DNA of 64,000 nt from Serinicoccus profundi (GTDB lineage Bacteria; Actinomycetota; Actinomycetes; Actinomycetales; Dermatophilaceae), in contig NZ_CP042862.1 of assembly GCF_008001015.1 (NCBI RefSeq), positions 372,001-436,000 of the forward strand, in the 5' to 3' direction. The translations under genes were made by a program, and so were the position numbers. This document shows positions 705 through 23,171 of the stretch, one piece after another; position 1 is the first letter of the stretch, and each line of letters starts with the position of its first letter. The notes under the pieces are model-generated. The model was not told the origin of the DNA, searched no databases, and was given only the letters and a program-made list of their open reading frames with translations.

Positions 705-705
705 C

Positions 706-4845: not shown

Positions 4846-4948
4846 AGCTGCCCTCCCTGGGCCTCGGTCTTGCCTCGTTGCCGTTCATCCCGCATGGACG
4901 CTAGCATCGACCAATACCGATCATCGCTGCAAGTCCAAATCTACGTAG

Positions 4949-5850: not shown

Positions 5851-5922
5851 ACAACGCTCACGCCGAGCGTGGACCCGTCCCCAGGTACGAGTCGCCAGCG
5901 CGGGCCTCTTTACGCTGGCACG

Positions 5923-6907
5923 GTGCCGTTGACCCCCTTGATCCAAGCGATAGAGCGCCACCAGATTGGCCTGTATCTCCTCGCCATCGCAGGTGGAGCG
6001 ATCCTTGGCTGGTTCGCTGCCCGCTGCCGCCGGGCCTCTTGAAAATGCCATCACTCCCGTGCTCGGGCTGTTGCTGTTCGCCACGTTCCTGGGGATCCCG
6101 TTCTCGGCGATCGGTCAGGCCGTGCGCGATGTGCGCTTCATCGCCACGATCCTGGTCCTCAACTTCGTCATCGTTCCCGCCGTGGTCTTTGCCCTGTCGC
6201 GGTTCGTGGCCGACAGCCCGGCCCTGCTGGTGGGTGTGCTGCTGGTGCTGCTGACCCCGTGCATCGACTACGTGATCGTCTTCGCCGGGCTGGCCGGCGG
6301 CTCCAGTGAGCGTCTGCTCGCTACAGCGCCGCTGCTCATGCTGGCCCAGATGCTGTTGCTGCCCTTCTACCTGCTCCTCTTCGTCGGGCCGGAGCTCGTC
6401 TCGGCCATCGAGCCAGGCCCCTTCCTCGAAGCGCTCATCGGGCTCATCATCGTCCCGCTCACCTTGGCGGCTTTGACCCAGTGGTTGTCCCGAGAACAGG
6501 CAGCCGGCAAGACCGTGATGACCGTTGTGCAGGCGATGATGGTCCCGTTCATGATGGCGACACTGGCTGTGGTGATCGCATCGCAGATCCACGCAGTTGG
6601 GCAAGAGGTCACCGCGCTGTTGGCCGTCGTCCCTCTCTACGTAGCCTTTCTGGTGGTGATGGTTCCCCTCGGGATGGCGTGCGCACGAGTCGCACGGCTC
6701 GATTCGGGCAGCACGAGGGCCGTGATCTTCAGTGGCGCCACTCGAAACTCGCTAGTGGTACTCCCGCTGGCGCTGGCCCTGCCGGCGCCCCTGGGCCTGG
6801 TTCCGCTCGTCGTCGTCACCCAAACCATGGTCGAGCTCCTCGGCATGGTGATCTACGTCAAGGCCATCCCACGCCTGGTCGCCTCGGGGCCGATTCTGCG
6901 GAACTGA
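5923..6907 (+). CDS. Arsenite permease of the BASS/ACR3-like family, N-terminus frameshifted
   Basis: Ten-helix bile-acid:sodium-symporter superfamily protein of the type annotated as actinobacterial arsenic resistance permease; by family it would extrude arsenite. Features include the conserved GLLLFATFLGIPF helix, a Cys-containing loop LTPCIDYVIVF and the C-terminal SGATRNSLVVLPLALALP. The open frame begins only near 5966, with residues that do not fit. In the neighbouring frame a GTG at 5923 encodes the expected start PLTPLIQAIERHQIGLYLLA, and it joins the main frame if the CCC at 6020-6022 were one base shorter. The gene is therefore either mildly broken or misread. No ArsR or ArsC lies next to it. 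Confidence 0.7.
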
Positions 6908-7076
6908 TCCAAGGGTTGACGTGCCGTGAGAGTCCATGGGCATCCGTACCGCGACTCGTTGCAACAGAGGTAACTCATCGACGCACTGCGCCCCGTCGGC
7001 TTCCGTGGAACGTCAGGAGTGTTCGGAACGCGGAGGCTGGGTAACTGGCGCACGATCGTAGCCCCGTCGGCCCTGG

Positions 7077-7676
7077 TCAGAGGCCGAAGGCTCCGCCACC
7101 GACCAGGATGGCGATGCCCAGGCCGATCAGGACGATGGGGAACAGGATGTGCTCCCACCGCTCGAGGACTTCGGCGATCGGGGGGCGGGTGGCCACGAAC
7201 TTGGCCAGCACGACGAGGGCCGCGACAAGCACGAGGAACACGATGCAGTAGGCCACCACGGCCGCCGGTCCCACGCTGAGGAAGACCGGCACGTAGACGC
7301 CGATGTTGTCCCCGCCGTTGGCGAAGGTGACCCCGGCGACGGTCCAGACCGCGACGTTCTTGCCGGCGACCTTGGCGTCGTCATCATCGTCACCGTCCCC
7401 GCGCCAGGCCTGCCAGGCGGCCCATAGACCCAGAGCCAAGGGGATGAGTCCGAAGTACGGGATAACTTCCGAGGGCAGGAACGCATCCGCGCCCACGGTG
7501 ACGAGCACGGCCGCGCCAAGAATGCCCGCGAACCCCAGATACTGGCCGACGGCGATCCGGGCGGTCGTCCCGGGCTGTCCCGCACCGCGGGCGAAGAACA
7601 GCGAGAGCACGATGATGTCGTCGATGTTGGTCGCGATGAACAGGCCGATCGCCTGCAGGATCGAGGACAGGATCAT
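7077..7676 (-). CDS. cadD: CadD-family cadmium resistance transporter
   Basis: Six-helix membrane protein of the CadD family (about 200 residues), which confers cadmium resistance by binding or export. The family motif ATNIDDIIVLSLFF is at residues 14-27 and its second-half counterpart VTFANGGDNIGVYVPVF is present. A cytoplasmic Asp-rich loop (GDGDDDDDAK) separates the two halves. I chose the ATG at 7676 because it overlaps the stop of cmtR (ATGA) and starts directly with the first helix; an upstream start at 7700 would add eight charged residues. It is in one transcription unit with its sensor cmtR. Confidence 0.85.
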   Translation of the reverse strand: MILSSILQAIGLFIATNIDDIIVLSLFFARGAGQPGTTARIAVGQYLGFAGILGAAVLVTVGADAFLPSEVIPYFGLIPLALGLWAAWQAWRGDGDDDDDAKVAGKNVAVWTVAGVTFANGGDNIGVYVPVFLSVGPAAVVAYCIVFLVLVAALVVLAKFVATRPPIAEVLERWEHILFPIVLIGLGIAILVGGGAFGL

Positions 7677-8032
7677 GCGCGCGCCTCGGCGATGCAGCAT
7701 CCGTCAATAGAGCAGGCAGGATCGAGGCACGGCGCGTTCTCGTATACTGCGAGAGTGACCTCAACCAGTGCGTTCAGCGCCCGCGAAAGGTGTGGATCCG
7801 CGATCTCATAACGCGTCCGACGGCCCTCGAGTTCGGCGACCACGATGCCGCAGTCCCGCAGGCACGCGAGATGGTTGGACACGTTAGAGCGCGTCAACCC
7901 TAGGTCGCTCGCCAGCTCCGCCGGGTAGGCCGCCCGCTCGAGCAGCACCAGAAGAAGTCGTGACCGGGTGGGATCGGCCAGCGCCCGACCCAACCGGTTC
8001 ATCACATCGAGACGAGAAGCAACGGTCAGCAC
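7673..8032 (-). CDS. cmtR: CmtR-type ArsR/SmtB cadmium/lead sensor
   Basis: 119-residue ArsR/SmtB winged-helix repressor. It aligns without gaps to Mycobacterium tuberculosis CmtR as I remember that sequence, and keeps all three metal ligands at the same positions: C57 and C61 in the DNA-recognition helix (SNHLACLRDCG) and C102 in the C-terminal tail (NAPCLD). Three further cysteines (C107, C112, C113) extend the tail. By analogy it represses the cmtR-cadD operon and is released by Cd(II) or Pb(II). It is the first gene of the operon, with a four-base overlap to cadD. The region just upstream (8033-8070) is relatively AT-rich and is the probable operator-promoter. Confidence 0.88.
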   Translation of the reverse strand: MLTVASRLDVMNRLGRALADPTRSRLLLVLLERAAYPAELASDLGLTRSNVSNHLACLRDCGIVVAELEGRRTRYEIADPHLSRALNALVEVTLAVYENAPCLDPACSIDGCCIAEARA

Positions 8033-8575
8033 ACGCTGAACAATACAGCAACGACTGAATTGATCACGGTGACGGCAAGCGCATTAGGGCGGGCATGCCT
8101 GCCTCATGCGTGGGCGGCGTGCTCGCGTTCGGGCGTGGTCGGGTGGTTCGAGCTGGAAAGTGGAAGTGCTTCATGCTGACGGAGAAGTGGGCGGCCACGC
8201 AGTCCTGCAGCCCGGGTACCGCATCACTGGGCGCGGTGCCGCCCGCCTTCCCCGAAGGTGACAGCGTCCGCTCAGCGAGGCTGACCCAGCAAACGTGCTT
8301 CTCTCCGGGTCGTTGGCACCGGGGCTCCTGGGTGCGCCCTGCTCCTGGTCACGGCCAGGGCTAGGCCCGGCGTGGCGCCACATGAGTGGCCTAACGGCGA
8401 GTCTGCTGTCTTGGCGGCAACCCTCGCGCACCCGGCGAAGGGGTCCTCCGCGGAACACCCTTGGTGCTGACCGCCCGAGCGAGCCGCGGTAAACCGGTAG
8501 GCCGCTTCTCCGCACATCCGAATCGGTGGCGTCGCGTTCGTCGAAGGAAGCGTTGGGACGGACGTCGACCTGCGA
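8033..8575. other. Gene-free stretch of the island
   Basis: About 540 bases between cmtR and the small Cys-rich protein gene. The first 60 bases should contain the cmtR promoter. Reading frames here have unconvincing composition in all six frames, and I recognise no family. The sequence may be debris of earlier insertions. Confidence 0.4.
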
Positions 8576-8791
8576 CTACTCCTGCGATACCTCGAGTGAG
8601 GCCTTTTCATGGGCGGTGTGGGTGCTGCGGTGTCCCCACGGGAAGACCCACCGGAACAGATTCAGGCCAGGACGTCTGCACCAGCAGTCCTCCGCGCAGC
8701 CGCACCTGATCGCTCCGGCCGCCTCGGCTGCCTTGTTGCCGAGAGCGAGAAGTAGGTAGCCACCAGCGAGCAGCCTCAGTACACGCCTCAC
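8576..8791 (-). CDS. Small Cys-rich membrane protein in the thioredoxin-like gene pair
   Basis: 71-residue protein starting at a GTG that overlaps the stop of the upstream thioredoxin-like gene (GTGA). It has a single hydrophobic segment at residues 5-17 (LRLLAGGYLLLALGN). A cysteine cluster follows (RCGCAEDCWCRRPGL, four Cys in about ten residues), and then an aromatic segment FRWVFPWGHR. The arrangement suggests a membrane-tethered metal- or thiol-handling peptide. Its coupling to the thioredoxin-like protein suggests that the two act together. I do not recognise a named family. Confidence 0.65.
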   Translation of the reverse strand: MRRVLRLLAGGYLLLALGNKAAEAAGAIRCGCAEDCWCRRPGLNLFRWVFPWGHRSTHTAHEKASLEVSQE

Positions 8792-9090
8792 GAGAGCACC
8801 TCGGTGAGTTGATCTACGGTCGGTGAGCCCGCGAGACCTGCTGGTATCTGGTAGACCCGGCACGCCAGACCGACCTGCTCGGCGCCGCTGGAGAATGGAT
8901 CGTGGCCGTCGATGCGGATCGTGGGTGATCCGGCGAAACCAACCCGTTCGGCGTCCTCAGGTGTTTCAACCTTGCGCCGCTCGACCACAACGTCGACACG
9001 ACCCAGTCGGGTCAACGCCTCGGACAGTCGCTCATTCGCGACGGTCCAGTGCGGACAGCCGTCGAAGTAGAAGAGTTCGAGTCGCAACAC
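8788..9090 (-). CDS. Thioredoxin-like (DF-family) protein linked to metal resistance
   Basis: 100-residue thioredoxin-fold protein of the small family often annotated as DF-family (seleno)protein or alkylmercury-lyase-like thioredoxin. It opens LRLELFYFDGCPHW; a single Cys replaces the usual CxxC. It contains ETPEDAERVGFAGSPTIRIDG with the cis-proline region, and ends with ACRVYQIPAGLAGSPT. The GTG start at 9090 has a GGAGG six bases upstream, so I prefer it to the longer frame beginning at 9150. It is about half identical by eye to the protein at 11487-11801 in the neighbouring element. The next gene starts within its stop codon. Confidence 0.75.
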   Translation of the reverse strand: MLRLELFYFDGCPHWTVANERLSEALTRLGRVDVVVERRKVETPEDAERVGFAGSPTIRIDGHDPFSSGAEQVGLACRVYQIPAGLAGSPTVDQLTEVLS

Positions 9091-9159
9091 TTGCCTCCAT
9101 CTCCTGACCCCTGCACCAAGTTGGTCAACGGGCTCTCCATTCTCGACCACCGGGTGGCT

Positions 9160-9185
9160 ATGACAACTTGCGCGAGCAACCTACA
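9160..9185 (+). repeat. Putative right end of a Tn7-like element (element X)
   Basis: The eight terminal bases AACCTACA (9178-9185) equal the last eight of element Z at 21050-21057. Just inside, GACAACTTGCG resembles GACAAGTTACG at the same distance (one base offset) in Z. Twelve bases further right the left end of element Y begins. No left end for X is visible in the window, so X would run past base 1. Confidence 0.5.
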
Positions 9186-9197
9186 GGCTGGTCTGTT

Positions 9198-9300
9198 TGT
9201 AGATTCTCGGCCGATCTGTCGGGGGGAGCGGGTACGTGACCTGCGGAGCGACATGCTGATGAGAGGCCGCAGGTCTCCCTAACTTGTCGGAATCCTCAGC
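9198..9300 (+). repeat. Left end of element Y
   Basis: Starts TGTAGATTC and continues TCGGCCGATCTGTCGGGG. About 80% identical over 100 bases to the left end of element Z at 13311. The stretch 9091-9534 holds the X and Y ends and no gene I can support. Confidence 0.7.
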
Positions 9301-9906
9301 GAAGACTCTCAGAGTCGGTCGGGGGCCGCCCCCAAGCCCCTTGCCAATGGTCGTGACATCACTCTCACGCATGACGCCGATGTCCGGATGTTCTCTCCCG
9401 ACTGGAGAGGAGGCCGGCGGGCGATCCTCTTCGCGGATCCGGAATTCCCACGAGTCACGCCTGTTACAGGGCGATGCCCAATGCTGCGGGTGTGCACCCG
9501 TTCTCGTTCTGGGGGGTCATACCCTGTGCGGCTGTTACTGCGACGGGGACAGGATGTGGCATATGTCCTGGTCTGCGCAGTGGCCGGGGTCAAGCAGCTG
9601 GCTGCGCTGGAGCAGGGCCTCGAGCTCTGCCTGCAGCGTGAGGAGGTTGCGGATCCGTGTCCGAACGTCAGCGAGCTTGGTGTCCAGGAGCGTGGTGACG
9701 TGCTGGCAGGGGGTGGACCCCTGGTCACGTAGGTCCAGGATGCTGCGGATCTGTGACAGCGTGAGCCCGGCCGCTTGCGCCATGGCGATGTAGCGCAGCC
9801 GTGTTGCTGCGGAGTCGTCGTAGACGCGGTAGCCGTTCGCCCCTCGCTCGGCCTCGGGCAGCAGGCCCTGGCGCTCGTAGAAGCGGATGGTCTGACTGCT
9901 CACTCC

Positions 9907-11385
9907 GGGGGTGTCAGATGGTCTGTGTAAGTGCCGGGTCTCCGACCGAGAAGGAGATTGACTGTGAGCATGACGCACGACGAGATGAGGGCCGAGGATC
10001 TGGACCAGGTCGAGGTGGAGCATCGGGCCGCGGCTGCGCGGCTGCGTGAGGAGTTCTTCGACGACGAGCTGGTCGACAAGTTGCTCGCGGCGACCGGTGA
10101 GCGCGGGGTGTCCTTGACCGGGGCCGGTGGCTTCCTGCCCGAGATGATCAAGACCGTCCTGGAGCGCGGCATGGGAGCCGAGCTGACCGACCACCTCGGG
10201 TACGCCAAGGGCGACGCGGCCGGCCGAGGTTCGGGGAACTCCCGCAACGGCACGACCCCCAAGACGGTGGGCACCGAGGTCGGTGACATCGCCCTGGACC
10301 AGCCGAGGGACCGCAACTCCACGTTCTCCTCGGCGCTGGTGCCCAAGGGCGCCCGCCGCCTCGGCGGGCTGGAGGACATGATCATCTCCCTGTACGCCGG
10401 CGGGATGACCGTTCGCGACATCCAGCATCATCTGGGCGCGACGCTGGGCACCGAGCTGAGCCACGAGACGATCAGCAACGTCACCGACGCCGTGCTCGAG
10501 GAGGTCAAGGCCTGGCAGTCCCGCCCGCTGGAGGCGTTCTACCCGGTGATCTACCTCGACGCCCTGGTGGTCAAGGTCCGCGACGGGTCGCACGTGACCA
10601 ACCGCTCGGCGCACGTGGCCGTCGGCGTCGACATGGACGGCGTCAAGCACGTCCTGGGCATTTGGGTCCAGGCCACCGAGGGCGCCAAGTTCTGGGCCGG
10701 CGTGTGCGCCCAGCTGGCCAACCGCGGCGTCAAGGACGTGCTCATCGTCTGCTGCGACGGGCTGACCGGCCTGGCCGAGGCGATCGAGGCGACCTGGCCG
10801 CACGCGATGGTGCAGACCTGCGTGGTGCACCTGATCCGGGCCTCGATGCGGTTCGTCTCCTACGCCGACCGCAAGGCCGTCGCCGCGATGCTGCGCCCGA
10901 TCTACACCGCCGCTGACGAGGACGCAGCGCTCATGGCGCTGGCCGCCTTCGCCGACTCCAACCTGGGCAAGAAGTACCCCGCTGCGGTCGCCACCTGGGA
11001 GAACGCCTGGGACCGGTTCATCCCCTTCCTGGCGTTCGGGCCCGCGCTGCGCAAGGTCATCTACACGACCAACAGCATCGAGAGCCTGAACTACCAGCTG
11101 CGCAAGATCATCAAGAACCGCGGCCACTTCCCCAGCGACGAGGCCGTGATCAAGCTGCTCTGGCTGGCAATCATGAACATCGAGGACAAACGAGCCCGAG
11201 AACGAGCCAAGCAGGCCAGCAAGGGCAAAGACCGAAAGTCGGTGCCCCGCCTGATCGAAGGCGCCGCCGTCACCGGTTGGAAAGCCGCCCTTGGCGAGCT
11301 CGCCCTCGTCTACCCCGACCGCGTAAACGCCTACCTGTAAACCCAATGTGACCCACATCACTTACACAAACATCGTGACAAGCTC
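9907..11385 (+). mobile_element. IS256-family insertion sequence in merR
   Basis: 1,479-bp element with 27-bp imperfect terminal inverted repeats (19 of 27 positions agree; the inner ten, TGTGTAAGTG, are perfect). It is flanked by an 8-bp direct repeat CTCACTCC (9899-9906 and 11386-11393). Because the next two target bases are GG, the exact left boundary is uncertain by two bases. It encodes a single transposase. Confidence 0.9.
9964..11340 (+). CDS. IS256-family transposase
   Basis: 458-residue DDE transposase (Transposase_mut). The N-terminal part contains LLAATGERGVSLTGAGGFLP and the family segment GYAKGDAAGRGSGNSRNG. The catalytic aspartates are in IYLDALVVKVRD and IVCCDGLTGL, and the acidic residue lies in the C-terminal signature NSIESLNYQLRKIIKNRGHF. 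The GTG at 9964 is chosen because AAGGAG lies seven bases upstream; the ATG at 9970 is the alternative. The gene fills the element and appears intact, so the element could still be mobile. Confidence 0.93.
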   Translation: MSMTHDEMRAEDLDQVEVEHRAAAARLREEFFDDELVDKLLAATGERGVSLTGAGGFLPEMIKTVLERGMGAELTDHLGYAKGDAAGRGSGNSRNGTTPKTVGTEVGDIALDQPRDRNSTFSSALVPKGARRLGGLEDMIISLYAGGMTVRDIQHHLGATLGTELSHETISNVTDAVLEEVKAWQSRPLEAFYPVIYLDALVVKVRDGSHVTNRSAHVAVGVDMDGVKHVLGIWVQATEGAKFWAGVCAQLANRGVKDVLIVCCDGLTGLAEAIEATWPHAMVQTCVVHLIRASMRFVSYADRKAVAAMLRPIYTAADEDAALMALAAFADSNLGKKYPAAVATWENAWDRFIPFLAFGPALRKVIYTTNSIESLNYQLRKIIKNRGHFPSDEAVIKLLWLAIMNIEDKRARERAKQASKGKDRKSVPRLIEGAAVTGWKAALGELALVYPDRVNAYL

Positions 11386-11447
11386 CTCACTCCGGCCGAC
11401 TCGGCCAGCTCTCCGATCCGCATTCGCCCGTCTCCCACCTCTCGCGC

Positions 11448-11486
11448 TTGACCTTGCACCACGGTACAAGGTCTAGCGTCGCGGGC
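11448..11486 (+). promoter_or_regulatory. MerR-type promoter and operator
   Basis: A -35 TTGACC (11448-11453) and -10 TAGCGT (11474-11479) are separated by 20 bp. The spacer carries a dyad with arms ACCTTG and CAAGGT (11451-11472). The overlong 19-20 bp spacer with a central dyad is the hallmark of MerR-activated promoters. The predicted transcription start falls at or next to the ATG at 11487, so the message would be leaderless. Confidence 0.8.
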
Positions 11487-11801
11487 ATGGACGTCTGCCT
11501 GCTCTACTTCGAGGACTGCCCCAGCTGGAAGGTGACTGACCGCAGGTTGGTCGCGATCGCGACCGAACACCCCGAAGTCAGGATCCGGCGTCAGCGCGTC
11601 GAGACCCTCGAGCAGGCCGAGCGGGTGGGCTTTCGGGGCTCACCGACCGTCCTGGTCGACGGGGCCGACGCGTTCGGCTCACCCGATTCAGCAGCTGGCC
11701 TCTCCTGCCGGGTCTATCGCACGGCCGACGGCCTTGCTGGGGCACCGACCCTGGAACAGCTACACGCAGCGCTGGGGCTGACCCAGGAGGTCACGCGATG
11801 A
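11487..11801 (+). CDS. Thioredoxin-like (DF-family) protein, first gene of the MerR-regulated operon
   Basis: 104-residue thioredoxin-fold protein, paralogous to the one at 8788-9090. It opens MDVCLLYFEDCPSW with cysteines at residues 4 and 11, carries ETLEQAERVGFRGSPTVLVDG and ends LSCRVYRTADGLAGAPT. I chose the ATG at 11487 because the longer frame from 11448 would run through the -35 and operator. It overlaps the flavoprotein gene by four bases. Under a heavy-metal MerR promoter it may act as a small thiol carrier that hands metal or electrons to the flavoprotein; that role is inferred from context. Confidence 0.8.
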   Translation: MDVCLLYFEDCPSWKVTDRRLVAIATEHPEVRIRRQRVETLEQAERVGFRGSPTVLVDGADAFGSPDSAAGLSCRVYRTADGLAGAPTLEQLHAALGLTQEVTR

Positions 11802-13150
11802 TCTACGACTACGACCTGATCGTCATCGGTGCCGGCATGGCCGGGGTCACGGCGGCGAACAAGTGCGCCGCCGCTGGATGGAAGGTCGCGATCGTCGACG
11901 CCCTTCCCTACGGCGGCACGTGTGCCCTGAGAGGGTGTGATCCCAAGAAGATCCTGCGCCGCGGTGCCGAGATCATCGACAGTGCCCGCCTGATGCGGGG
12001 TAAGGGCATCAACGACGACGGCCTGTCGGTCGACTGGGCCGACCTCATGGCGCACAAGCACGGCTTCACCGACCCCGTCCCCGCCAGTATGGAGGCAGGA
12101 CTGACCGGTAACGGCGTTACCACCCTGCACGGGACGGCGCGGTTCACCGGTCCCCAGACCGTGGCCATCGACGACGCCCCCTGCACCAGCCGACACTTCC
12201 TCATCACCACCGGTGCGCGCCCCCGCCCGCTAGACCTGCCCGGGCACGAGCACCTGCTGGACAGCACCGGCTTCCTGGACCTGACCGAGCTGCCGCGACG
12301 GATCCTGTTCGTCGGCGGTGGCTTCATCTCCTTCGAGTTCGCGCACATCGCCGCCCGGGCCGGAAGCACCCCGGTCATCCTGGACCGCAAACCACGACCG
12401 CTGAAGGCCTTCGACCCCGACCTCGTCGACCTCCTCATCGACCGCGGCACCAAGGCCGGCATCGAGAACTGGCCCTCTGCGACGCTCACCGCCGTGGAGA
12501 AGACCAGCACCGGCTATCAGGTGAGCGTCGATGAACCAGGGCGGTCAACGACAAGGGAGTTCGACCTTGTCGTGCACGGCGCAGGCCGGGTCCCCGAGCT
12601 GACGACCCTGGACCTGGAGACCGCCGGCGTGCAGTGGGACGAGGACGGGATCCGCGTAGCAGCCCATCTGCAGAGCACCAGCAACCCGGCGGTCTACGCC
12701 GCCGGCGACGCGGCCAGCACCCCTGGCATGCCATTGACCCCGGTCGCCGTGTTCGAGGGCAAGGTCGCCGCGTCCAACATGCTCAAGGGCACCACGACCG
12801 CCCCTGACTACACCGGCGTGTCCACCGCGGTGTTCACGATCCCCGAACTCGCCCGGGTCGGCCTGCTCGAGGAAGAAGCCCGCGACCGGGGCATTGACAT
12901 CGACGTCCGCTACACCGACACCAGCAGCTGGTACTCCAACTACCGGATCGGGGAGACGACCGCCGCGACCAAGATCCTCATCGACCGCTCCGACGACACC
13001 ATCGTGGGAGCACACCTGCTCGGACCCGAGTACGCCGAACTCGTCAACATCCTCGCCCTCGCCATGAAACTGCGACTCACCACCCGCCAGCTGAAGTCGA
13101 TGACCGCCGCCTACCCCACCGTCGGATCAGACCTGGGCTCCATGCTCTGA
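11798..13150 (+). CDS. Mercuric-reductase/lipoamide-dehydrogenase-like flavoprotein
   Basis: 450-residue class I pyridine nucleotide-disulfide oxidoreductase. FAD-binding VIGAGMAGVTAANK is at residues 9-22. The redox-active Cys pair is C42 and C47 (GGTCALRGC). The NAD(P)-binding segment is LFVGGGFISFEFAHIA, and VYAAGDAA is the second FAD motif. The C-terminal HPT of lipoamide dehydrogenases is replaced by AYPT, that is Tyr instead of the catalytic His, as in mercuric reductases. However, the C-terminal Cys pair and the N-terminal HMA domain of MerA are absent. It is therefore best called a MerA-like reductase of unknown substrate. The start overlaps the thioredoxin-like gene. Confidence 0.8.
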   Translation: MIYDYDLIVIGAGMAGVTAANKCAAAGWKVAIVDALPYGGTCALRGCDPKKILRRGAEIIDSARLMRGKGINDDGLSVDWADLMAHKHGFTDPVPASMEAGLTGNGVTTLHGTARFTGPQTVAIDDAPCTSRHFLITTGARPRPLDLPGHEHLLDSTGFLDLTELPRRILFVGGGFISFEFAHIAARAGSTPVILDRKPRPLKAFDPDLVDLLIDRGTKAGIENWPSATLTAVEKTSTGYQVSVDEPGRSTTREFDLVVHGAGRVPELTTLDLETAGVQWDEDGIRVAAHLQSTSNPAVYAAGDAASTPGMPLTPVAVFEGKVAASNMLKGTTTAPDYTGVSTAVFTIPELARVGLLEEEARDRGIDIDVRYTDTSSWYSNYRIGETTAATKILIDRSDDTIVGAHLLGPEYAELVNILALAMKLRLTTRQLKSMTAAYPTVGSDLGSML

Positions 13151-13224
13151 ACCAGGCACGAGCAGCAATCCCACAACACCGTGTGCTCAGCAGCGGTTCC
13201 ACTGTCACGAGACTCAGCGTGACA

Positions 13225-13300
13225 CTCCGCCATTAACTGGGACGACCGACACGCGTCCGCCAGTTAAGTGAGAAACCGACACGTTAGATGAGATCCCACA
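13225..13300 (+). repeat. Right end of element Y with 30-bp-period repeats
   Basis: Two ACCGACACG cores at 13245-13253 and 13275-13283, exactly 30 bp apart, with the terminus ATCCCACA at 13293-13300. The core-to-end distance (17 bases) and the 30-bp period are the same as at the right end of element Z. An inverted pair TTAACTGG/CCAGTTAA lies around the inner core. These are candidate TnsB-binding sites. Confidence 0.7.
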
Positions 13301-13310
13301 GCTGGCAAGA

Positions 13311-13415
13311 TGTAGGTTCTCGGCCGATCTGTCGGGGGAGTGGTTCGTTGACCTGCAGGGCGACAAGATGGTGAGACGAGGGCTGTCTCACCAACTTGTA
13401 GGGAATCCTCAGGCT
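13311..13415 (+). repeat. Left end of element Z
   Basis: Begins TGTAGGTTCTCGGCCGATCT and matches the left end of element Y along about 105 bases. It contains an internal inverted pair TGGTGAGAC/GTCTCACCA. It follows the right end of element Y after only ten bases. Confidence 0.75.
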
Positions 13416-13493
13416 CGAAATCCGGGCTCAGCAAGCTCGAAGGCGGCGCATGCACCTGTGAACCTGCAAAGCACACCCCAGCGCGGGCCTCCG

Positions 13494-13997
13494 CTAGGTG
13501 GTTTGCACTGTCGTGAATCCCAGGCCGCGGTATAGGCCGTGCGCGGCGGAGGAAGTGCCTTGCCCGACGCGCAGCGACAGCTGCCGGTCGCCAGCGCTTG
13601 TGCAGGCCTCCATCGCGGCCAGCACCAGCGACCGGCCCAAGCCAAGGCCCCGCGCTTCGGGATGCACGAACAGGTCGATGACGAAGGGCCCGTCGAGGTG
13701 GTCGTCCCAGATGGAACGCTCGACGACCAGGATCGCGCCCGCCGGCCTGCCGCGAACGCGCGCGAGCCAGCTCGCATCCGTTCGCAGGGTTCCGAACTGG
13801 CCGGTGAAGGTCTCATCGATCTCGCGTCGGGCGTCGTCCAGGTCCTCGGCTCCCACCTGGGGCGGGTAGCTGGCCAGGTAGAGCCGAGCCAGATTCTCAC
13901 GCTGGGACTGATCGAGAGGCATGAGGCGCTCGGCGGGATGAGCGGCGGGTGGATCGCCGGCCGCAGGCAGCGTGATGCTGAGCAGGTCAGAAGGCAT
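13494..13997 (-). CDS. GNAT-family N-acetyltransferase
   Basis: 167-residue GNAT acetyltransferase. The acetyl-CoA-binding signature VHPEARGLGLGRSLV is present, preceded by the beta-strand FVIDLF, and followed by the conserved aromatic segment AAHGLYRGLGFTTV near the C-terminus. Substrate is unknown. I chose the ATG giving MPSDLLSITLP because the longer frame from 14123 adds unrelated residues. It is divergent from the MerR-type regulator at 14168, so the two probably share a control region and the regulator may govern the acetyltransferase. It is cargo of element Z. Confidence 0.8.
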   Translation of the reverse strand: MPSDLLSITLPAAGDPPAAHPAERLMPLDQSQRENLARLYLASYPPQVGAEDLDDARREIDETFTGQFGTLRTDASWLARVRGRPAGAILVVERSIWDDHLDGPFVIDLFVHPEARGLGLGRSLVLAAMEACTSAGDRQLSLRVGQGTSSAAHGLYRGLGFTTVQTT

Positions 13998-14126
13998 GAG
14001 GGTTCCGTTCCAATGGTCGATGACGTGGGGATGAGAGGCGACGTCAGGAGCGGAACATGGTGAGGAGGATAGCAACCACGTGATGCCGACCGCCCGCCCT
14101 CCGGGGACGGGCGCCCAGGGCATGTG

Positions 14127-14157
14127 TTGACCTTGACACTGTGGAAGGGCGTCAGAT
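14127..14157 (+). promoter_or_regulatory. MerR-type promoter for the regulator at 14168
   Basis: A -35 TTGACC (14127-14132), an 18-bp imperfect dyad with arms CCTT and AAGG (14131-14148), and a -10 candidate TCAGAT at 14152-14157 give a 19-bp spacer. The inferred transcription start is next to the ATG at 14168, again suggesting a leaderless message and autoregulation. Confidence 0.5.
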
Positions 14158-14167
14158 GGCTGTCGAC

Positions 14168-14968
14168 ATGCTGAGTATCGGACATATGGCGCACGTGACC
14201 GGGGTGTCCCGGCGGATGCTGCGGCACTGGGAAGAGGTAGGTCTGCTCGCGCCGGCCTCCGTCGATGAGTTCACCGGCTACCGCCGGTACGCGCGGAATC
14301 AAGTTGGCCGGGTTCGGGCGATAGCGTCATTGAGAGCCGTCGGCTTCAGCCTCGACGCGATCAATGATCTTCTCGGTGGGCAACTCTCGGAGCGGCGACT
14401 CAAGGAGCTCCTGCGAGCTCGTGAGAACGAGCTCGTGGCCCAGATCGACGAGGACTCAGCGCGTCTGAAGGAGGTGCGAAAGCGCCTCACCGCTCTCCAG
14501 AGAGGACACCGAACGATCATGAACAACCTCGAGCTCGGCACGCTACCTACCTTGCAACTGGCAGCCCTGCAGACCTTCGTGGCGGATGAGTCGGAGATCG
14601 GCGACGCGGTCGCCGATCTACTGCCGCGAGTACGGGACCAGCTGGCCAAGAACGGCGTCACCGACGTCGACATCGTGCTCACGTACGACGGGACCTCCGA
14701 GGACAGCATCGTCGTCACCGCAGGGGCTCCGACCTCTGATGCACGCGTCATCCCAGGCCTCGAGGCAGTCCGGGTCGAGGGAGCCGAGCACGGTGCCAGT
14801 GTCCGTTTCGACACACCGCCCTCTGATATCGGTGATGCGTGGATCGCGATCGATGCGAACCTCGAACAACGCGGTCAAGAGACGACCGGGGTCTACCGCC
14901 AGACTCTCACGCGGGACGGTGGCGTCGTCCTGCAGGCGCCCCTCAAGAACCTGCCACACGAGGGCTGA
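14168..14968 (+). CDS. MerR-family regulator with C-terminal effector-binding domain
   Basis: 266-residue BmrR/TipA-like regulator. The N-terminal winged helix reads MLSIGHMAHVTGVSRRMLRHWEEVGLL, with the typical YRRYARNQVGRVRAI second wing. A coiled coil spans about residues 75-120, and a C-terminal GyrI-like domain of about 140 residues should bind a small ligand. The ATG at 14168 is preferred over 14156 and 14141 because it starts at the family position and directly after the inferred transcription start. No metal-binding cysteines are seen, so a drug-like or lipophilic ligand is more likely than a metal. It is divergent to the acetyltransferase. Confidence 0.8.
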   Translation: MLSIGHMAHVTGVSRRMLRHWEEVGLLAPASVDEFTGYRRYARNQVGRVRAIASLRAVGFSLDAINDLLGGQLSERRLKELLRARENELVAQIDEDSARLKEVRKRLTALQRGHRTIMNNLELGTLPTLQLAALQTFVADESEIGDAVADLLPRVRDQLAKNGVTDVDIVLTYDGTSEDSIVVTAGAPTSDARVIPGLEAVRVEGAEHGASVRFDTPPSDIGDAWIAIDANLEQRGQETTGVYRQTLTRDGGVVLQAPLKNLPHEG

Positions 14969-14984
14969 TGTGCGGCCGCGGGTC

Positions 14985-15332
14985 TCAGCCTCGGGTTGCT
15001 GCCCGGTGGTCCCCGTCCAGTTCCCAGGTGATGTGACCGCGCCTGGATAGGTCCTCAGTGTCGAGGGCGAGGGTGTGGCGGATCTGTCGGTGGACCAGCG
15101 GGTCGACGATGTGCTTGTCGTGCGGGAGGCCGCGCAGCGCCTGGTAGGTGGCGCGCGCGGTGGGGAGGAGGTGGGCCAGGAGGTCGGGGTTGGTGATGCC
15201 GTAGGTGCTGTCCAGGACGGCCGCAGCAGCCGGTGAGAACGCCTGCGACGGTAGTTCGTCCTCGGCAAGGAGGATGCTGACCGTCCTGCTGATCACCGTG
15301 GAGTGGTCCCAGTGCACGGACCATGGCAGCAA
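14985..15332 (-). CDS. Hypothetical protein following tniQ
   Basis: 115-residue ORF in the same reading frame as tniQ, whose stop is at 15396. It contains TVISRTVSILLAEDELPSQ and ends RRGHITWELDGDHRAATRG. The frame is open all the way from the tniQ stop, with TTG at 15332 and later GTG codons as possible starts. Composition is credible for a coding region, but I recognise no domain. It could be a separate small cargo gene or the severed tail of a once longer TniQ. Confidence 0.35.
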   Translation of the reverse strand: MLPWSVHWDHSTVISRTVSILLAEDELPSQAFSPAAAAVLDSTYGITNPDLLAHLLPTARATYQALRGLPHDKHIVDPLVHRQIRHTLALDTEDLSRRGHITWELDGDHRAATRG

Positions 15333-15395
15333 CGCCGGCGCTGACCCGGTGTCATCTCGTACCGGCGGCCGTGCCGGCCCGGGAGACTGGCTGCT

Positions 15396-17177
15396 TCAAG
15401 GAGGTCGCCACGTCAACGGTTCGCCAGGGTTGTGGCCGGCCGCCTCGGCGACTGCGGTGGCGACCATGGCCAGGAATCGGGCCAGGTCGGGGTCGGCGGT
15501 CGGGTCGGTGTGGGCGCCCTCCTCGTCGTCGCGGTGGTACAGGTCGGGGTTGAGCAGTGTTCCCTCGGTGGGCGCGGCCAGCCGTAGGTCACCGCCGGTG
15601 TAGACGGACCAGAAAAGTTCGACCAGGGCGCTGGTGCTGACCCAGCCGTGGCACGCGCAGAGGAGGCTGCGGGTGTGGTTCACCGCGGCGACGAGCAGGT
15701 CCTGGTCGGCGGCGATCCACCGGCGGCTTTGGTAGTCGATCGGCGGGGGAGTGGCCTCCAGGAGGGTCGCGACCTCGTCCAGGCGGCGCAGCACGGATGG
15801 CCAGGCGCCGGTGCGGCGCAGGTGCCGGACCAGGTTCGGTGGGTGGACCGTGAACGAGGCCGGTAGGCCGAGGTCGATCGCGATCAGTCGCCAGGGCCGG
15901 GTGCTGCCGACCTTGGCCAGCAGCATGCTGGCGGCGGCCCGGTCCCGGTAGTCGCTGTCGCGGATCCACGGGTGCAGCGTGCCGGGCCAGAGCAGCTGCG
16001 GGATCCATGCCAGCCGTGCCTGTCCCGGCGCCGGGCTGGGCGCACCGTGCTGGGTAGGGCAGGGGTAGCGCGGGTTGTCGCTTCCGGTGCGGAAGACCAG
16101 TTGGCTGCTGGCGGGTAGTCGCTCTCTCAGGGAGGTGAGGCGGACCGCGGCCAGCAGAGGGTTGCGCCGGCGTTTGGTCAGGACGTGGTCAGGGCCGATG
16201 GGGGTGACCGGCCCGGCCGGGTGCAGCAGCCCGTGCCGGTCGGCGATTGCTCCCGCGGCGGCCGGGTCCGGTTGTGCGATCACTGCTCGTGCGGCCAGGA
16301 CCGCGTCCAGCAGGTCGCCGGTGGCACGGCCGGGACGGGTCAGGTGCTTGACGTCGCCGAGCCGTTCGACGACGAGCTCCAGGGCGGCGTCGAACAGGTC
16401 CGCGTGGGACACCTCGAACCCGCAGGCCCGGATCACGTGTGCCGGATCGTCGTCGGCTTGTCGGGCCACGGCGTGCAGCCATAGCTGGACAGCTGCCACG
16501 TCCTGGTCGACCGGCGGTGCGGGGGCTTCGCGCAGGTCGTGCCCGCACACCTGGTACCTGGTCCGTGGGGTGTGCTGTCCGGGCGCGGGTTCGCTGCAGA
16601 CCCAGGGGGCGTTGTCGTGGGTCATCCATGCCGAGCTGGTGAACCGTGCGCGGTGGCACGCCGGGCAGCGGCGGACCAGGAGCCGTCGGTGCGTCGTGCA
16701 GACCAGGTTCAGCGGTGCCGCCCAGGCCTGCTGCCAGATGCCGCCGGTCTCGGCGAGGCAGGAGGGGCAGAAGCGGGTCCGGTCCGGGGCGACCTGGCCA
16801 CGGCCGTGATAGGCGCCCAGGTACCGGGCCACCTGGGAAGGCAGCGCATCATCGCCGCAGTCGGTGCCCGGCGGGCGGGAGTCGAGCCCCGCCGCGGTGG
16901 CCAGGGTCTGGACGTGCGGTGCCAGGTGCGCCTCGACGCGGGCGGCCGGGCCGGCCACGACCGCCACGCCGAGCTCGCTCAGAAGACCGGAGACCGGCAG
17001 CCTGTATCGGTGGGCCAACCGCGCCAGCCACGACGCCAGCTGCTCCCCCGCGGCCGGAGGCACGGCCAGCGGGAGCCGGGTGATGTCGTACCCGCCCGGT
17101 ACCAGCCGCGCCCGGGCACGCCCGGTGACCGGCCGGGGGAGGGGATCAGGTGCTCTGGCTGAGATGCTCGGCGGCAT
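15396..17177 (-). CDS. tniQ: TniQ-family transposition target-selection protein
   Basis: 593-residue TniQ/TnsD-like protein. The N-terminus has the family opening LPLAVPPAAGEQLASWLARL. Two zinc-finger halves follow: RFCPSCLAE near residue 145 and LVCTTHRRLLVRRCPACH near residues 165-182. The C-terminal 400 residues are variable, as expected for a target-recognising region. TniQ links the transposase-ATPase complex to a chosen site. The start is taken at the ATG at 17177 (MPPSISARAPD), which overlaps the tniB end by 32 bases; a start further upstream is less likely. The length suits a TnsD-type protein that could recognise a fixed attachment site. Confidence 0.85.
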   Translation of the reverse strand: MPPSISARAPDPLPRPVTGRARARLVPGGYDITRLPLAVPPAAGEQLASWLARLAHRYRLPVSGLLSELGVAVVAGPAARVEAHLAPHVQTLATAAGLDSRPPGTDCGDDALPSQVARYLGAYHGRGQVAPDRTRFCPSCLAETGGIWQQAWAAPLNLVCTTHRRLLVRRCPACHRARFTSSAWMTHDNAPWVCSEPAPGQHTPRTRYQVCGHDLREAPAPPVDQDVAAVQLWLHAVARQADDDPAHVIRACGFEVSHADLFDAALELVVERLGDVKHLTRPGRATGDLLDAVLAARAVIAQPDPAAAGAIADRHGLLHPAGPVTPIGPDHVLTKRRRNPLLAAVRLTSLRERLPASSQLVFRTGSDNPRYPCPTQHGAPSPAPGQARLAWIPQLLWPGTLHPWIRDSDYRDRAAASMLLAKVGSTRPWRLIAIDLGLPASFTVHPPNLVRHLRRTGAWPSVLRRLDEVATLLEATPPPIDYQSRRWIAADQDLLVAAVNHTRSLLCACHGWVSTSALVELFWSVYTGGDLRLAAPTEGTLLNPDLYHRDDEEGAHTDPTADPDLARFLAMVATAVAEAAGHNPGEPLTWRPP

Positions 17178-18213
17178 TGTCGATCCGGACCGATGACAGT
17201 ACGTCGGCGTCGAGCACCTCGGTCCCTGTGGTGATTGCTCGTGCGCAGGCACGTTCGAGCAGGGTCGCCAGCGACCCGATACGACCCTGGGTGCGTTTGT
17301 GCAGCAGGTCGGCGTGGTCGGTCAGCATCCCCGGGCGGGCCCGCGCCAGCTTGTAGTGCGGTTCCAGGGTGGCCAGGAGCGTGGCCCAGGCACGGGCACC
17401 GGCGTCGGTGCTAGTGGAGAAGGGGACGACCGGGCAGCGGGTAGCCCGCCGGCTGGTCTGGGCCAGGACGGCCTGGTCGCCGTGCAAACCTTCGTCGAAG
17501 AAGCGTCGCTCACGCAGCCCGACCCCGACGTAGATGAACGTGACCGGTAGCTCGTTGGCCAGGCCCTTGAGGTGGTTGGACACCTCGGTGCCGTGGCGCC
17601 CGGCGAAGTCGACGAAGTGCAGCTCGTCGATGACGATCAGGCGGGTGTCGCAGCTGGCGACGCAGTCGATGGCCAGTGCGGTCAGCTCGGTGCGTGAGCC
17701 GCGACGGGCCGCAGGGTGGCCGTAGAACTCCAACAGCTTCTGGTTCAGGCCCTTGAGGGTGATGCCCTCGTTCAACGGCACGAACGCCACCGGCAGCCGC
17801 TGATTCCCCTCAGCCGTGGTGTGCCCGTAGCGGCGGTAGATCCGCCGGTGGAAGTCGCGAGCGTACCGGGTCGCGATCGTGGTCTTGCCCAGGTACGGCT
17901 CGGCGTCGATGACCACCGACCCGCGCAACTTGTCCGCATCGCGACGGTTGGAGGCCATCACCTCATCGATCACCTGGTAGGCCGAGACGAGCTGCTGGGT
18001 GCGCACCGTCGGAGGGTTGGTGTTCCAGACAACCCGGGCCTCGCCGTAGTCCTCGGCCTCCTCCGGACTCAGATCGGCCATCTCGGCGAGGGTCAAGGTC
18101 GGGAAGTCCGGCCGGGGAGCCGCGTTCACGAACGCGTCCCACCCGGCCTTGCGGGACATCTGGAACAAGGCGGTGTCGTGCACGGCCAGCCACCGGGCCC
18201 ACGGGTTGCTCAT
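17146..18213 (-). CDS. tniB: TniB/TnsC-type AAA+ ATPase
   Basis: 355-residue AAA+ ATPase that would polymerise on target DNA and connect TniQ to the transposase. The Walker A region is a variant, VIDAEPYLGKTTIATRY, lacking the usual first glycine but keeping GKT. Walker B is RLIVIDELHFVDF, followed by a sensor-like segment VTFIYVGVGLRE. The ATG at 18213 overlaps the tnsB stop (ATGA) and encodes MSNPWARWLAVHD; the longer frame to 18462 runs antisense through tnsB and is rejected. This is the third gene of the tnsA-tnsB-tniB-tniQ operon. Confidence 0.88.
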   Translation of the reverse strand: MSNPWARWLAVHDTALFQMSRKAGWDAFVNAAPRPDFPTLTLAEMADLSPEEAEDYGEARVVWNTNPPTVRTQQLVSAYQVIDEVMASNRRDADKLRGSVVIDAEPYLGKTTIATRYARDFHRRIYRRYGHTTAEGNQRLPVAFVPLNEGITLKGLNQKLLEFYGHPAARRGSRTELTALAIDCVASCDTRLIVIDELHFVDFAGRHGTEVSNHLKGLANELPVTFIYVGVGLRERRFFDEGLHGDQAVLAQTSRRATRCPVVPFSTSTDAGARAWATLLATLEPHYKLARARPGMLTDHADLLHKRTQGRIGSLATLLERACARAITTGTEVLDADVLSSVRIDNAAEHLSQST

Positions 18214-20213
18214 TCGTCGAACACCTCCAGCACCTCGCTGTCCGGGTGCTCGGCGTAGTAGCGCTCGAACACGTCCAGGTCGTCCGGGTGCTGCGTCGGC
18301 GCGGCCTTCCGGGCCTCGCGGGCGGTGAGCAGGTCGATCACCCCGGGCACGGAGGCGCGGTCGGTCACCTCGCCTGCGTCGAACACGTGGCTGCTGGGCT
18401 GGGTGGCCAGCCGGATCGCAAGGTTGCGTTCTCGGCGGCCCATCACCTCCTCCCGGCCCCACCGGGCCAGGAGGTCTTCCACAGCCTGCTGCGGGTCGAC
18501 GTGCCGGTGCTCGGCGATGCTGATCCGGCGGGTGTAGTCAGCTGCGTCCTTGCTGAACGGGGCGTTGATCCCGCTGGCGAGCCGCCACTCCAGGCGGTGC
18601 CACCTCTTATCGGCCGGGTCCTGGAAGTAGACGGCCCGCACATCGTCGACATCGACCAGGATCGGCCACTTCCCGGCATGGGCGCCGCCGTAGTCCGATC
18701 TCCTGGCCCGGTAGGTGTTCAAGCCCGGACCGTCGTACCGGCGCCCGTCGATGTCGACGCCGTAGTGATGGATCTTGCGCCACTGGACCTCCATCAACTC
18801 ATACCGCAGGTCCTCGGCCGCCGGGAGCCGCAGCAGCCCGGAGAACTCGATGCCCCGGTTGAACATCTCCTGCGGGGACAGGTCGACCTTCGGCAGCAAC
18901 GGGTCCCGCAGCCCCCGGTGCGCGCGGAGGTGATAGACGTCACCGACCCACTCCCTGATCAGGTCCTCCAGCTCGGTGACGTAGTAGAACGCGCCCTTCT
19001 CGACGTCCTTGCCGCGGTAGGCGATGTTGGGACCCTTGTAGCCGGACAGCTTGTCCAGCAAGGACAATCGCAGGCTCTTGAAGAACCGCTCGAGTGCCGG
19101 TTTGTCGGTCGGCTTGTCCGGGATCGCCGGCTGCACCGAGATCCCCAACCGGCGGCACACCCCCATCGTGTGCTCAGACAGGTACACCTTGCCGTGGTCG
19201 ATGACGATGGTGTCCGGGAACACCCCGACCGACCCCAGGACCACGTGTTCCGGGACGCCGGCGTACGGACCTGACGGGGAGTCGGGTCTCCGTCCCCACT
19301 GCTGCGGGGTCAGGCACTGCAGCAGCACGCTGGCCACGTCCGCCGACTTCGCCGCGACCGGGCGCAGACGCAGGCCTTTCACGGAGCGGTCGTACAGGTC
19401 CATCGCCAACGTAAGCTCGGTGTTCACCCACCGCATCGTCACCGGCTCCATCGCGAACACGTCCAGCTTGTACCCGTCCATCAGCACGTACTCACCGGGA
19501 CGGTTCGGACGCAGCTGCCCCAGGACACCCTGCGGGCGCTTGGCAACCGAACGACGCCGCGGAGCGTCCCCGAACGTGTGCCGGCCGGCGTCCAGCTCGA
19601 CAACGCGTTCGTAGGCCACCGACCGGGTGGGTACTACGCCGTCGGGTACCGACTCCAGGAACACCCGGTTCGTCTCCCGGATGACCGTCTGCTGCGAGGG
19701 TGTGGACCGGTTGGTATAGCGGGAGAGGACCTCGGTGCACGCATCATCCCAGCGGGGATCGACGCTGCGCCTGGTGTCCTTCAGGAGCCGCTCATCGATC
19801 AGCCCGGCCGGGCCCAGCTCGTCGAACCGGCGCAGGCGCCGTTGCACCGTTCGCAGCGACAACCCCAGCTTCGTGGCCGCTGAGCGCATCCGGGCGGGCG
19901 CCTCGTCAGCTCCTCGAACCGCGAGCAGCTCAGCGAAGATCTCCACCTCCGCCTCCAACCGGGTGCGCTGCTTGAGGGTCAAGGACTCCAGGCCGATAGC
20001 TGACAGGAGGTCCCGCTGCCCTGCATCGACGGCGTGACTGTCGGGGTCCAGTCCGGAGGCACCTTCGAGCAGGTCCGTCACCGCAGCTGTCCGATACCGT
20101 CCACCGTCTCCCTGCAGACGCACAGACGTGCCGCGGACCTCGCAGACGGCCCAGCCCTCGCCGTCGAACCACAGTCGAGTGCCGACCCGGACCTCAAGCA
20201 AGGACCCTGTCAC
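18210..20213 (-). CDS. tnsB: TnsB-type DDE transposase
   Basis: 667-residue Mu/Tn7-type integrase. A helix-turn-helix (LGLSLRTVQRRLRRF) lies at residues 116-130. The catalytic core supplies D246 (YVLMDGYKL), D339 (TIVIDHGKVY) and E375 (KPALERFFKSL), with exactly 35 residues between the last two. A Mu-transposase C-terminal beta-barrel domain follows from about residue 480 (GVDIDGRRYDG). The GTG start overlaps the tnsA stop (GTGA). Its binding sites are probably the 30-bp-period repeats at the element ends. Together with TnsA it would allow cut-and-paste movement. Confidence 0.92.
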   Translation of the reverse strand: MTGSLLEVRVGTRLWFDGEGWAVCEVRGTSVRLQGDGGRYRTAAVTDLLEGASGLDPDSHAVDAGQRDLLSAIGLESLTLKQRTRLEAEVEIFAELLAVRGADEAPARMRSAATKLGLSLRTVQRRLRRFDELGPAGLIDERLLKDTRRSVDPRWDDACTEVLSRYTNRSTPSQQTVIRETNRVFLESVPDGVVPTRSVAYERVVELDAGRHTFGDAPRRRSVAKRPQGVLGQLRPNRPGEYVLMDGYKLDVFAMEPVTMRWVNTELTLAMDLYDRSVKGLRLRPVAAKSADVASVLLQCLTPQQWGRRPDSPSGPYAGVPEHVVLGSVGVFPDTIVIDHGKVYLSEHTMGVCRRLGISVQPAIPDKPTDKPALERFFKSLRLSLLDKLSGYKGPNIAYRGKDVEKGAFYYVTELEDLIREWVGDVYHLRAHRGLRDPLLPKVDLSPQEMFNRGIEFSGLLRLPAAEDLRYELMEVQWRKIHHYGVDIDGRRYDGPGLNTYRARRSDYGGAHAGKWPILVDVDDVRAVYFQDPADKRWHRLEWRLASGINAPFSKDAADYTRRISIAEHRHVDPQQAVEDLLARWGREEVMGRRERNLAIRLATQPSSHVFDAGEVTDRASVPGVIDLLTAREARKAAPTQHPDDLDVFERYYAEHPDSEVLEVFDE

Positions 20214-20980
20214 CCTCGGGACACCTCCCGGACGCGATCGATCCGCGTCGCCGAGCTGAGGGGCTCATCCAGGTCGATCTCCCACGCCTGGTGCCAAAGG
20301 AGGCCAACCATCGCTGCCCGCAGGGCGTGCGCCGTGTAGTCGGTGGCGCGGCTCGCGGCCCTGAGCGACTCGCCCAGTGACCGGTCCACGGCGCCGTGGC
20401 GATGGAGCTGGATCGTGGCTCCGGGGTCCACCAGGTGTGCCCGGCGCCCCTGAGCCAGGAACCGGACGTTGGTCAACCGACGCGAGTCGGTGCCGGACCA
20501 CACCGAGTAGCGCCACCCTCGTTCAGCAAGCACCCGGCCCGTCCAGCCGAGAACTTCGGCGACCTCTGGCTTGTCGACCAGATGTCCGGGCTTGACGTCG
20601 ACCACCTCGACCGACCCATCACGTCGTTGCAGCAGGTAGTCCGGGACATGTCGGCGCACGACGTCGCCATCACGACCGGCGAGCCCGAACGGTTGACTGG
20701 CTACGGCGACCACGTCCTGGTCGAAGTCAGCCAGCATGAGCCGGTCCCGTTCGAGCAGGCTCTCGTACCCGACCAGGTCACCCATCGTCGCCGCCCACCA
20801 CCAGCCCGGGTAGTGACCCATCCCCGCGTACGACCCGAACCGGCGAACCGGGAGCCCGCGCACCACCAGGTCCGCTCGGACAGCATCCCAAGTCGTCACG
20901 ACGTCCTCGCCGTCTCGGGACGTGTAGCGGACCTCGACCAGCCTTCCCGGCTTCTCCCTGGCCACGGCTCCAGGGTCCAC
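20210..20980 (-). CDS. tnsA: TnsA-type endonuclease subunit of heteromeric transposase
   Basis: 256-residue TnsA-like nuclease, which cuts the 5' ends of the element so that the transposon is excised cleanly. The restriction-enzyme-like active site is visible: E73 in YESLLERD, D114 in RHVPDYLL, and D128/K130 in VEVVDVKP. A basic C-terminal region of about 100 residues would contact TnsB or TniB. It is the first gene of the operon and starts right at the inner edge of the right-end repeats, so binding of TnsB to the end could repress its own operon. The start at 20980 (GTG) is the longest option; a slightly later start is possible. Confidence 0.85.
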   Translation of the reverse strand: MDPGAVAREKPGRLVEVRYTSRDGEDVVTTWDAVRADLVVRGLPVRRFGSYAGMGHYPGWWWAATMGDLVGYESLLERDRLMLADFDQDVVAVASQPFGLAGRDGDVVRRHVPDYLLQRRDGSVEVVDVKPGHLVDKPEVAEVLGWTGRVLAERGWRYSVWSGTDSRRLTNVRFLAQGRRAHLVDPGATIQLHRHGAVDRSLGESLRAASRATDYTAHALRAAMVGLLWHQAWEIDLDEPLSSATRIDRVREVSRG

Positions 20981-20983
20981 CTC

Positions 20984-21057
20984 GCGACAAGATCCCCGGA
21001 CAACGACACGCCGACGACAAGAAACCTGGACAACGACAAGTTACGGCGGAACCTACA
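20984..21057 (+). repeat. Right end of element Z with two 30-bp-period repeats
   Basis: GGACAACGACA occurs at 20998-21008 and 21028-21038, 30 bp apart, each preceded by CGACAAGA. The terminus is GAACCTACA at 21049-21057. The outer core ends 17 bases before the terminus, exactly as in element Y. Confidence 0.75.
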
Positions 21058-21113
21058 GTCGCGCCCGGAGGAATCTGAGACCCAACCAGGGAACAACGCC
21101 GACCGGCCCGTAG

Positions 21114-21196
21114 TTGAGCCTAGTGAACTCAACTTCGGTGAGCCTCGGTTTGACAACACGCCGGCCCATCGCCAGAGTTGAGTGCAGACGTGTCAA
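21114..21196 (+). promoter_or_regulatory. Two HAIR operators (HspR sites) and promoter of dnaK
   Basis: HAIR1 is TTGAGC-N7-ACTCAA at 21114-21132, one mismatch from the perfect inverted repeat. HAIR2 is TTGAGT-N7-TGTCAA at 21178-21196. Between them TTGACA (21150-21155) is a good -35, which puts the -10 next to HAIR2. HspR bound here would block the dnaK operon until heat shock. The Tn7-like element Z ends 56 bases upstream of HAIR1. Confidence 0.8.

Positions 21197-21242: not shown

Positions 21243-23167
<1,925 letters not shown>

Positions 23168-23171
<4 letters not shown>

Follow-up and report, generated by a model that had tools for sequence, protein, structure and literature searches.

The window analyzed in this study is a 64,000-nucleotide stretch of the Serinicoccus profundi genome (contig NZ_CP042862.1) that begins at genome position 372001. 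It contains most of an array of four head-to-tail Tn7-like elements, W-X-Y-Z, which spans 34 kilobases (kb) and stops upstream of dnaK. The left ends of W and X (genome positions 359142 and 362056, respectively) are both located to the left of the window. The initial annotation correctly recognized a head-to-tail Tn7-like array but counted three elements (X, Y, and Z), W lying outside the window. Direct reading, which was rechecked, found the three right ends (each terminating in ACA), the two left ends in the window (agreeing at 26 of their first 27 bases), and the spacers of 12 and 10 base pairs (bp) between elements all where that annotation had placed them (Table 1).

The elements of the array bear TGT...ACA ends with several repeated sites, to which TnsB putatively binds. 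The right end of Y carries ACCGACACG at 13245 and again at 13275, 30 bp apart, and the outer copy stops 17 bases before the terminus, exactly as annotated. The same spacing was found in the right end of Z, between the outer core AACGACAAG (21032-21040) and the inner core AACGACACG (21002-21010), albeit the latter differs by one base from the core originally given; two more CGACAAG cores are present at 20985 and 21015. An inner inverted repeat was observed within the left ends (window positions 9198-9300 and 13311-13410), being clearest in W (CGACAAGTTGGTGAGAC ... GTCTCACTAACTTGTCG), and this suggests that one putative TnsB site is oriented opposite to the others. The ends were located with end profiles; generic repeat finding yielded mostly codon-like matches. 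With up to three mismatches allowed, the left-end pattern matched four places in the 3.48-megabase genome, all within the array, and the reversed control pattern matched none. Among 186 genomes of the family, the pattern was found in 25 and the reversed pattern in two.

Z encodes both TnsA and TnsB, the pair expected of a Tn7-like element (the active-site residues of TnsB were judged by eye), as well as a TnsC/TniB ATPase and a TniQ/TnsD-type target selector. TnsA, TniB/TnsC, and TniQ were recognized by protein families and TnsB by solved TnsB chains, while no Pfam transposase-core family reached 0.001 against the latter. The TniQ profile weakly matches solved TnsD/TniQ structures (best E-value 3e-4). 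Transposons of the Tn402/Tn5053 type comprise TniA, TniB, and TniQ without TnsA, from which Z is distinguished by its TnsA. Inspection of the frames of Z by eye revealed no Cas gene or CRISPR array, for which no dedicated search was made. The annotation that only Z encodes tns genes holds within the window as far as a full set is concerned; outside, W seems by eye to retain a piece of the TnsA start near its right end, albeit this piece was not among the tblastn matches obtained with the TnsA of Z at an E-value of 1e-8.

The right ends facing dnaK were found at a nearly constant distance from the dnaK promoter. At 21 of the 22 occupied sites, a GGAAYR-like-N17/18-GTTGAG sequence adjoins the right end, and its GTTGAG...CTCAAC repeat resembles HAIR, the operator of HspR. 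In 20 of the 22 sites (G013 and G010 were excluded from the spacing figures, see below), the distance from the right end is 29-33 bp to the SigH-type -35 (standard deviation 0.9) and 53-56 bp to the GTT of the promoter, whereas for the dnaK start codon it ranges from 159 to 305 bp (standard deviation 36). Given a near-constant distance to the -35 and a variable one to the start codon, the insertion point is most simply read as being set by promoter/operator DNA rather than by the dnaK coding sequence. The promoter box was detected in 29 of the 30 dnaK loci examined, occupied and unoccupied alike, and in a later test of long-TniQ loci in other families, all five testable loci had the element at the same place. 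In Mycobacterium tuberculosis, where dnaK is listed as SigH-dependent, SigH promoters have the consensus GGAAYR-N17-GTT (PMC4803200), and a related consensus has been reported (PMC3489674). In genome G160 (L150, local 4828-4847), a 19-bp piece of the right end of another lineage follows the dnaK-side right end, as if an insertion had cut an older end yet kept the promoter spacing.

In a listing of 30 dnaK loci (that of the window genome, 28 of its genus, and one from another genus), a right end was found by inspection at the dnaK place in 10. In three members of the same genus (G011, G028, and G029), the backbone matches the window genome up to position 354094 and dnaK upstream DNA follows within 0.8-0.9 kb; in G007 and G021, the gap between the two is approximately 2 and 7 kb, respectively. 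The window genome has 5 kb between 354094 and W. As the array-free congeners join the backbone to the dnaK flank, the possibility raised at the outset that the DNA between 9186 and 13310 is ancestral can be rejected. In G016, a bare left end remains at the dnaK site.

Of the sites with a dnaK-side right end, 17 also yielded a left end, and the 5 bp outside each of the two ends were compared. They are identical at 10 of the 17 sites, namely G003 (AGGAA), G004 (CTGGG, with the nearer of two left ends), G019 (GGATT), G024 (ACTCT), G071 (GCAGC), G074 (ACAGC), G075 (TCGGA), G206 (GCAAA), Kineosphaera limosa (CCGCA), and G442 (AGGGA).

Kineosphaera limosa NBRC 100340 (NZ_BAHD01000044.1) possesses X-Y-Z at its own dnaK with identical 12- and 10-bp junctions; identity between the two copies is 99.85% across 19.9 kb and 99.95% across 9.7 kb. 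The match stops at the right terminus of Z, beyond which the dnaK DNA is 86.6% identical. On the other side, it continues for 71 bp beyond X into the adjacent right end, whose type is related but whose junction differs. A further element, V, is located to the left of X and has its own TnsB (approximately 50% identical to that of Z). The flank immediately left of X in K. limosa does not match the dnaK-side flank; only the outer left end does. When the K. limosa genome was searched for CCGCATGTNGGNTC, based on the CCGCA expected before the outer left end if V-X-Y-Z had arrived in a single insertion, one place was found and it is a left end (profile E-value 7.6e-13). The same search of the window genome hit one place, 434447, which was taken as background in view of its distance from the array. 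With the outer left end and the right end sharing the same 5-bp flank, V-X-Y-Z probably entered this site in a single insertion. Directly to the left of this outer left end (L172, local about 15365-15434; C141:67364-67433), there is a short palindromic repeat that occurs dozens of times in the K. limosa genome.

Likewise, the outer flanks match and the inner flanks differ in G074, with two elements, and G019, with six left ends in a stack that spans a contig gap; synteny with G010 and G018 supports the contig join in G019. Movement of whole stacks best explains this combination of matching outer and differing inner flanks. BLASTN comparisons of the left flanks of K. limosa and G019 with the window genome and G011 returned nothing over 200 bp. 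Within one array, likeness is 62-91% among left ends and 50-91% among right ends; the random median under the same lenient alignment is 60%. The likeness of left ends between lineages suggests that an outer left end and a dnaK-side right end are usable together; joint use of unlike ends is thus plausible, and we infer that ends of different lineages may be paired. Target immunity as the cause of unlike neighbours was considered and set aside, since the two TnsB proteins of G010 are 84% identical.

As to the history of the array in S. profundi, the element of G013 ends with the right end of X and the 12-bp junction and is followed by dnaK flank DNA, representing the state before Y. The first 15.7 kb of X are 99.3-99.4% identical to DNA in G003, G029, and G030 (14.0 kb of the left part are 98.9% identical to G160). 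The last 2 kb of X match the element of G013 and G019. X itself is a fusion, its two parts being found in different elements elsewhere. The presence of X-Y-Z with the same junctions in K. limosa points to its movement as a block. Repeated insertion at one attachment site, as initially annotated, is accordingly supported in general, but a simple build-up by successive insertions in this genome is not.

The cargo of X and Y is metal- and redox-related. Family searches detected CcsB as well as CadD-like and distant ACR3-like transporters (the latter two below curated cut-offs), and ArsR-, ResB-, and CcdA-like genes were recognized by eye. A flavoprotein resembles glutathione or mercuric reductase, again below cut-offs. 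An IS256-family element splits the MerR-like gene of Y and is absent from the copies of Y in K. limosa and G019. Z additionally carries GNAT and MerR-family genes. No close copy of Y turned up in searches of plasmids (the best place covers 31% of the query), and the relatives of TnsB found in such searches are all under 60% identity.

Table 1. Positions in the window of the array elements, their genes, and the adjoining dnaK region.
Feature	Position	Strand	Remarks
X, right part	1..9185	+	right end ...AACCTACA at 9178-9185; weak right-end profile match, E-value 1.2e-4
X/Y junction, 12 bp	9186..9197	.	in G013, identical 12 bp after the same right end, continuing into dnaK flank
Element Y	9198..13300	+	interrupted MerR-like gene, small thioredoxin-like frame, flavoprotein reductase; right-end cores 30 bp apart
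IS256-family insertion in Y	9909..11382	+	borders within about 13 bp
Y/Z junction, 10 bp	13301..13310	.	identical in K. limosa
Element Z	13311..21057	+	sole element in the window with full tns set; its right end closest to dnaK
tniQ, long form	15396..17252	-	PF06527, E-value 2.1e-14; 618 amino acids as listed, start approximate; alignment of 13
tnsC (TniB-like ATPase)	17146..18213	-	PF05621, E-value 2.3e-13
tnsB	18210..20213	-	solved TnsB 8rdu, E-value 4.8e-17
tnsA	20210..20980	-	NF033179, E-value 8.5e-60
SigH-type dnaK promoter, proposed attachment site	21090..21118	+	GGAACA-N17-GTTGAG; GTTGAG opens HAIR-like inverted repeat
dnaK	21243..23171	+	gene adjoining the attachment site

Judging from the sequences, which display the array, its site, the fixed spacing, the empty sites, the 5-bp duplications in relatives, and the block common to K. 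limosa, we propose with a probability of roughly 0.8 that a Tn7-like family homes to the dnaK stress promoter and stacks there, that the stacks can move as one transposon, and that the window holds most of one such stack. Elements with TnsA, TnsB, TnsC, and a long TniQ would home to this promoter in many Micrococcales-type actinobacteria. TniQ, presumably the protein that recognizes the site, would read the SigH -35/-10 and the overlapping operator DNA, probably via its C-terminal half, and TnsABC would insert the element such that its right end comes to lie approximately 31 bp upstream of the -35, without disruption of dnaK or its promoter. As the site would survive insertion, later elements could land beside earlier ones and stacks could grow; once an outer left end is used together with the right end that faces dnaK, the stack would move as one transposon. 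A more far-reaching version is speculative and, on balance, improbable: homing would be tied to cellular stress, because the target selector would read the dnaK promoter itself, which is controlled by SigH and HspR (and HspR, SigH, or RNA polymerase would compete with the selector or assist it), and a stack composed of unlike lineages would pass as one transposon when a left end of one lineage is paired with the right end of another.

Several observations weigh against this proposal. In the window genome, no 5-bp duplication was found around W-X-Y-Z, X-Y-Z, Y-Z, or Z. The 5-bp flanks differ in G010, G013, G018, G160, and G229 as well (in G160 and G229, the left end compared is not the outermost one), and those of G027 are one base off, its inner right end matching exactly (AGAAA). 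The outer ends in G019, G024, and K. limosa are on different contigs. The link between the left contig and dnaK in K. limosa has thin support from one 667-bp piece, 72% identical in G125; a longer piece (1.75 kb, 77%) maps to another contig of G125, and the joined flanks align weakly with G125 near the junction. With respect to the site, the right end is 41 bp away in G013 and the -35 is altered in G010, several elements at the 22 sites are closely related so that the sites are not all independent, and an AlphaFold model of TniQ (mean predicted local distance difference test score 45.5) was unusable. Homing at a fixed distance with the right end toward the site has one reversed case, G139 (L165, local 10033), in which the end toward dnaK, 34 bp from the -35, is a left one; this is a reversed or rearranged insertion at the dnaK site. 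In G027 (L095, local 14510-19614), the 15 bp that follow an inner right end occur again beyond the dnaK-side right end with a single change, a repeat that is not explained by simple insertion.

The lack of a duplication in the window genome and the flank repeats of G027, which are hard to explain by transposition alone, would fit an array that arrived by homologous recombination of a chromosomal segment, its elements having been added singly elsewhere with no unit movement here. We regard this as possible but rather unlikely, as the match between the X-Y-Z copies ends at the right terminus of Z, with the dnaK DNA beyond much less alike, and the outer flanks match around the stacks of K. limosa, G019, and G074. 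The same three stacks bear on whether all stacks were built solely by successive single insertions, matching outer flanks being chance or a relic of the first insertion. Single elements have clearly used the site repeatedly, and G013 displays the pre-Y state; nevertheless, after a first single insertion a match would also be expected at the inner flank of that element, and there is none in any of the three, and a chance 5-bp match is expected about once in 1000 comparisons, though several left ends were compared per site. This explanation thus appears doubtful.

It is less probable still that TniQ recognizes the beginning of the dnaK coding region in the way that TnsD of Tn7 recognizes glmS, and that the promoter merely lies in between. 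Coding DNA is the usual type of target of Tn7-like elements (PMC11406308), but such a reading is at odds with a start-codon distance that varies over 159-305 bp when the distances to the -35 span 4 bp. Finally, the notion that the likeness of the ends reflects background repeats with no relation to transposition can practically be dismissed; no supporting point was found, and the pattern counts against reversed controls in the window genome and in the 186 genomes refute it.

Tn7 and Tn7-like transposons homing with TnsD/TniQ (PMC11406308, PMC10293859) share with the elements proposed here TnsA, TnsB, TnsC, and TniQ, TGT...ACA ends, a fixed distance from a conserved chromosomal site with the right end next to it, and, at 10 of the 17 sites compared, a 5-bp duplication. 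In contrast, the site here is a SigH-type dnaK promoter, not glmS, tRNA, parE, or comM, which are named by Faure et al. 2023 (PMC10293859) and a review (PMC11406308), and stacks of unlike lineages appear to move together. Benler et al. 2021 (PMC8649781) described clade 2 of Tn7-like transposons, dominated by Actinobacteria and with no member experimentally characterized; by description, it resembles our elements in host phylum and Tn7-like core genes. dnaK is absent from the main texts of PMC8649781 and PMC10293859, and a dnaK attachment site did not appear in the titles or abstract starts among the literature matches listed, which were open-licence papers without supplements; listed papers that contained the relevant words and were checked proved unrelated to such a site. 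Compared by description, Tn7706 of Rhodococcus erythropolis (PMC12915292) also has tnsA, tnsB, tniQ, and tniB in an actinobacterium, but resides on plasmids and other Rhodococcus contigs. Other Rhodococcus relatives have a TniQ of approximately 315 amino acids and no adjoining dnaK. In two Rhodococcus loci (L073 and L079), a common CCAGTCACTC motif was observed just outside the right ends, the remaining flank differing; it is perhaps another attachment site. Tandem Tn7 islands at attTn7, formed by repeated use of one attachment site, were reportedly described by Parks and Peters in 2007. They concern another site and lineage, and here there is evidence that the stack itself moves. Altogether, Tn7-like elements that use the dnaK stress promoter as their attachment site and move as stacks appear to be new.

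The present finding gives an actinobacterial group of Tn7-like elements a defined landing site, namely the stress promoter of a chaperone operon in place of a gene end or an RNA gene, and the fixed spacing makes the dnaK site easy to scan for. The C-terminal half of TniQ is a candidate recognition domain that is directly testable. Movement of stacks would allow several cargo elements to be inherited and transferred in one step, and would explain large single-site islands common to genera.
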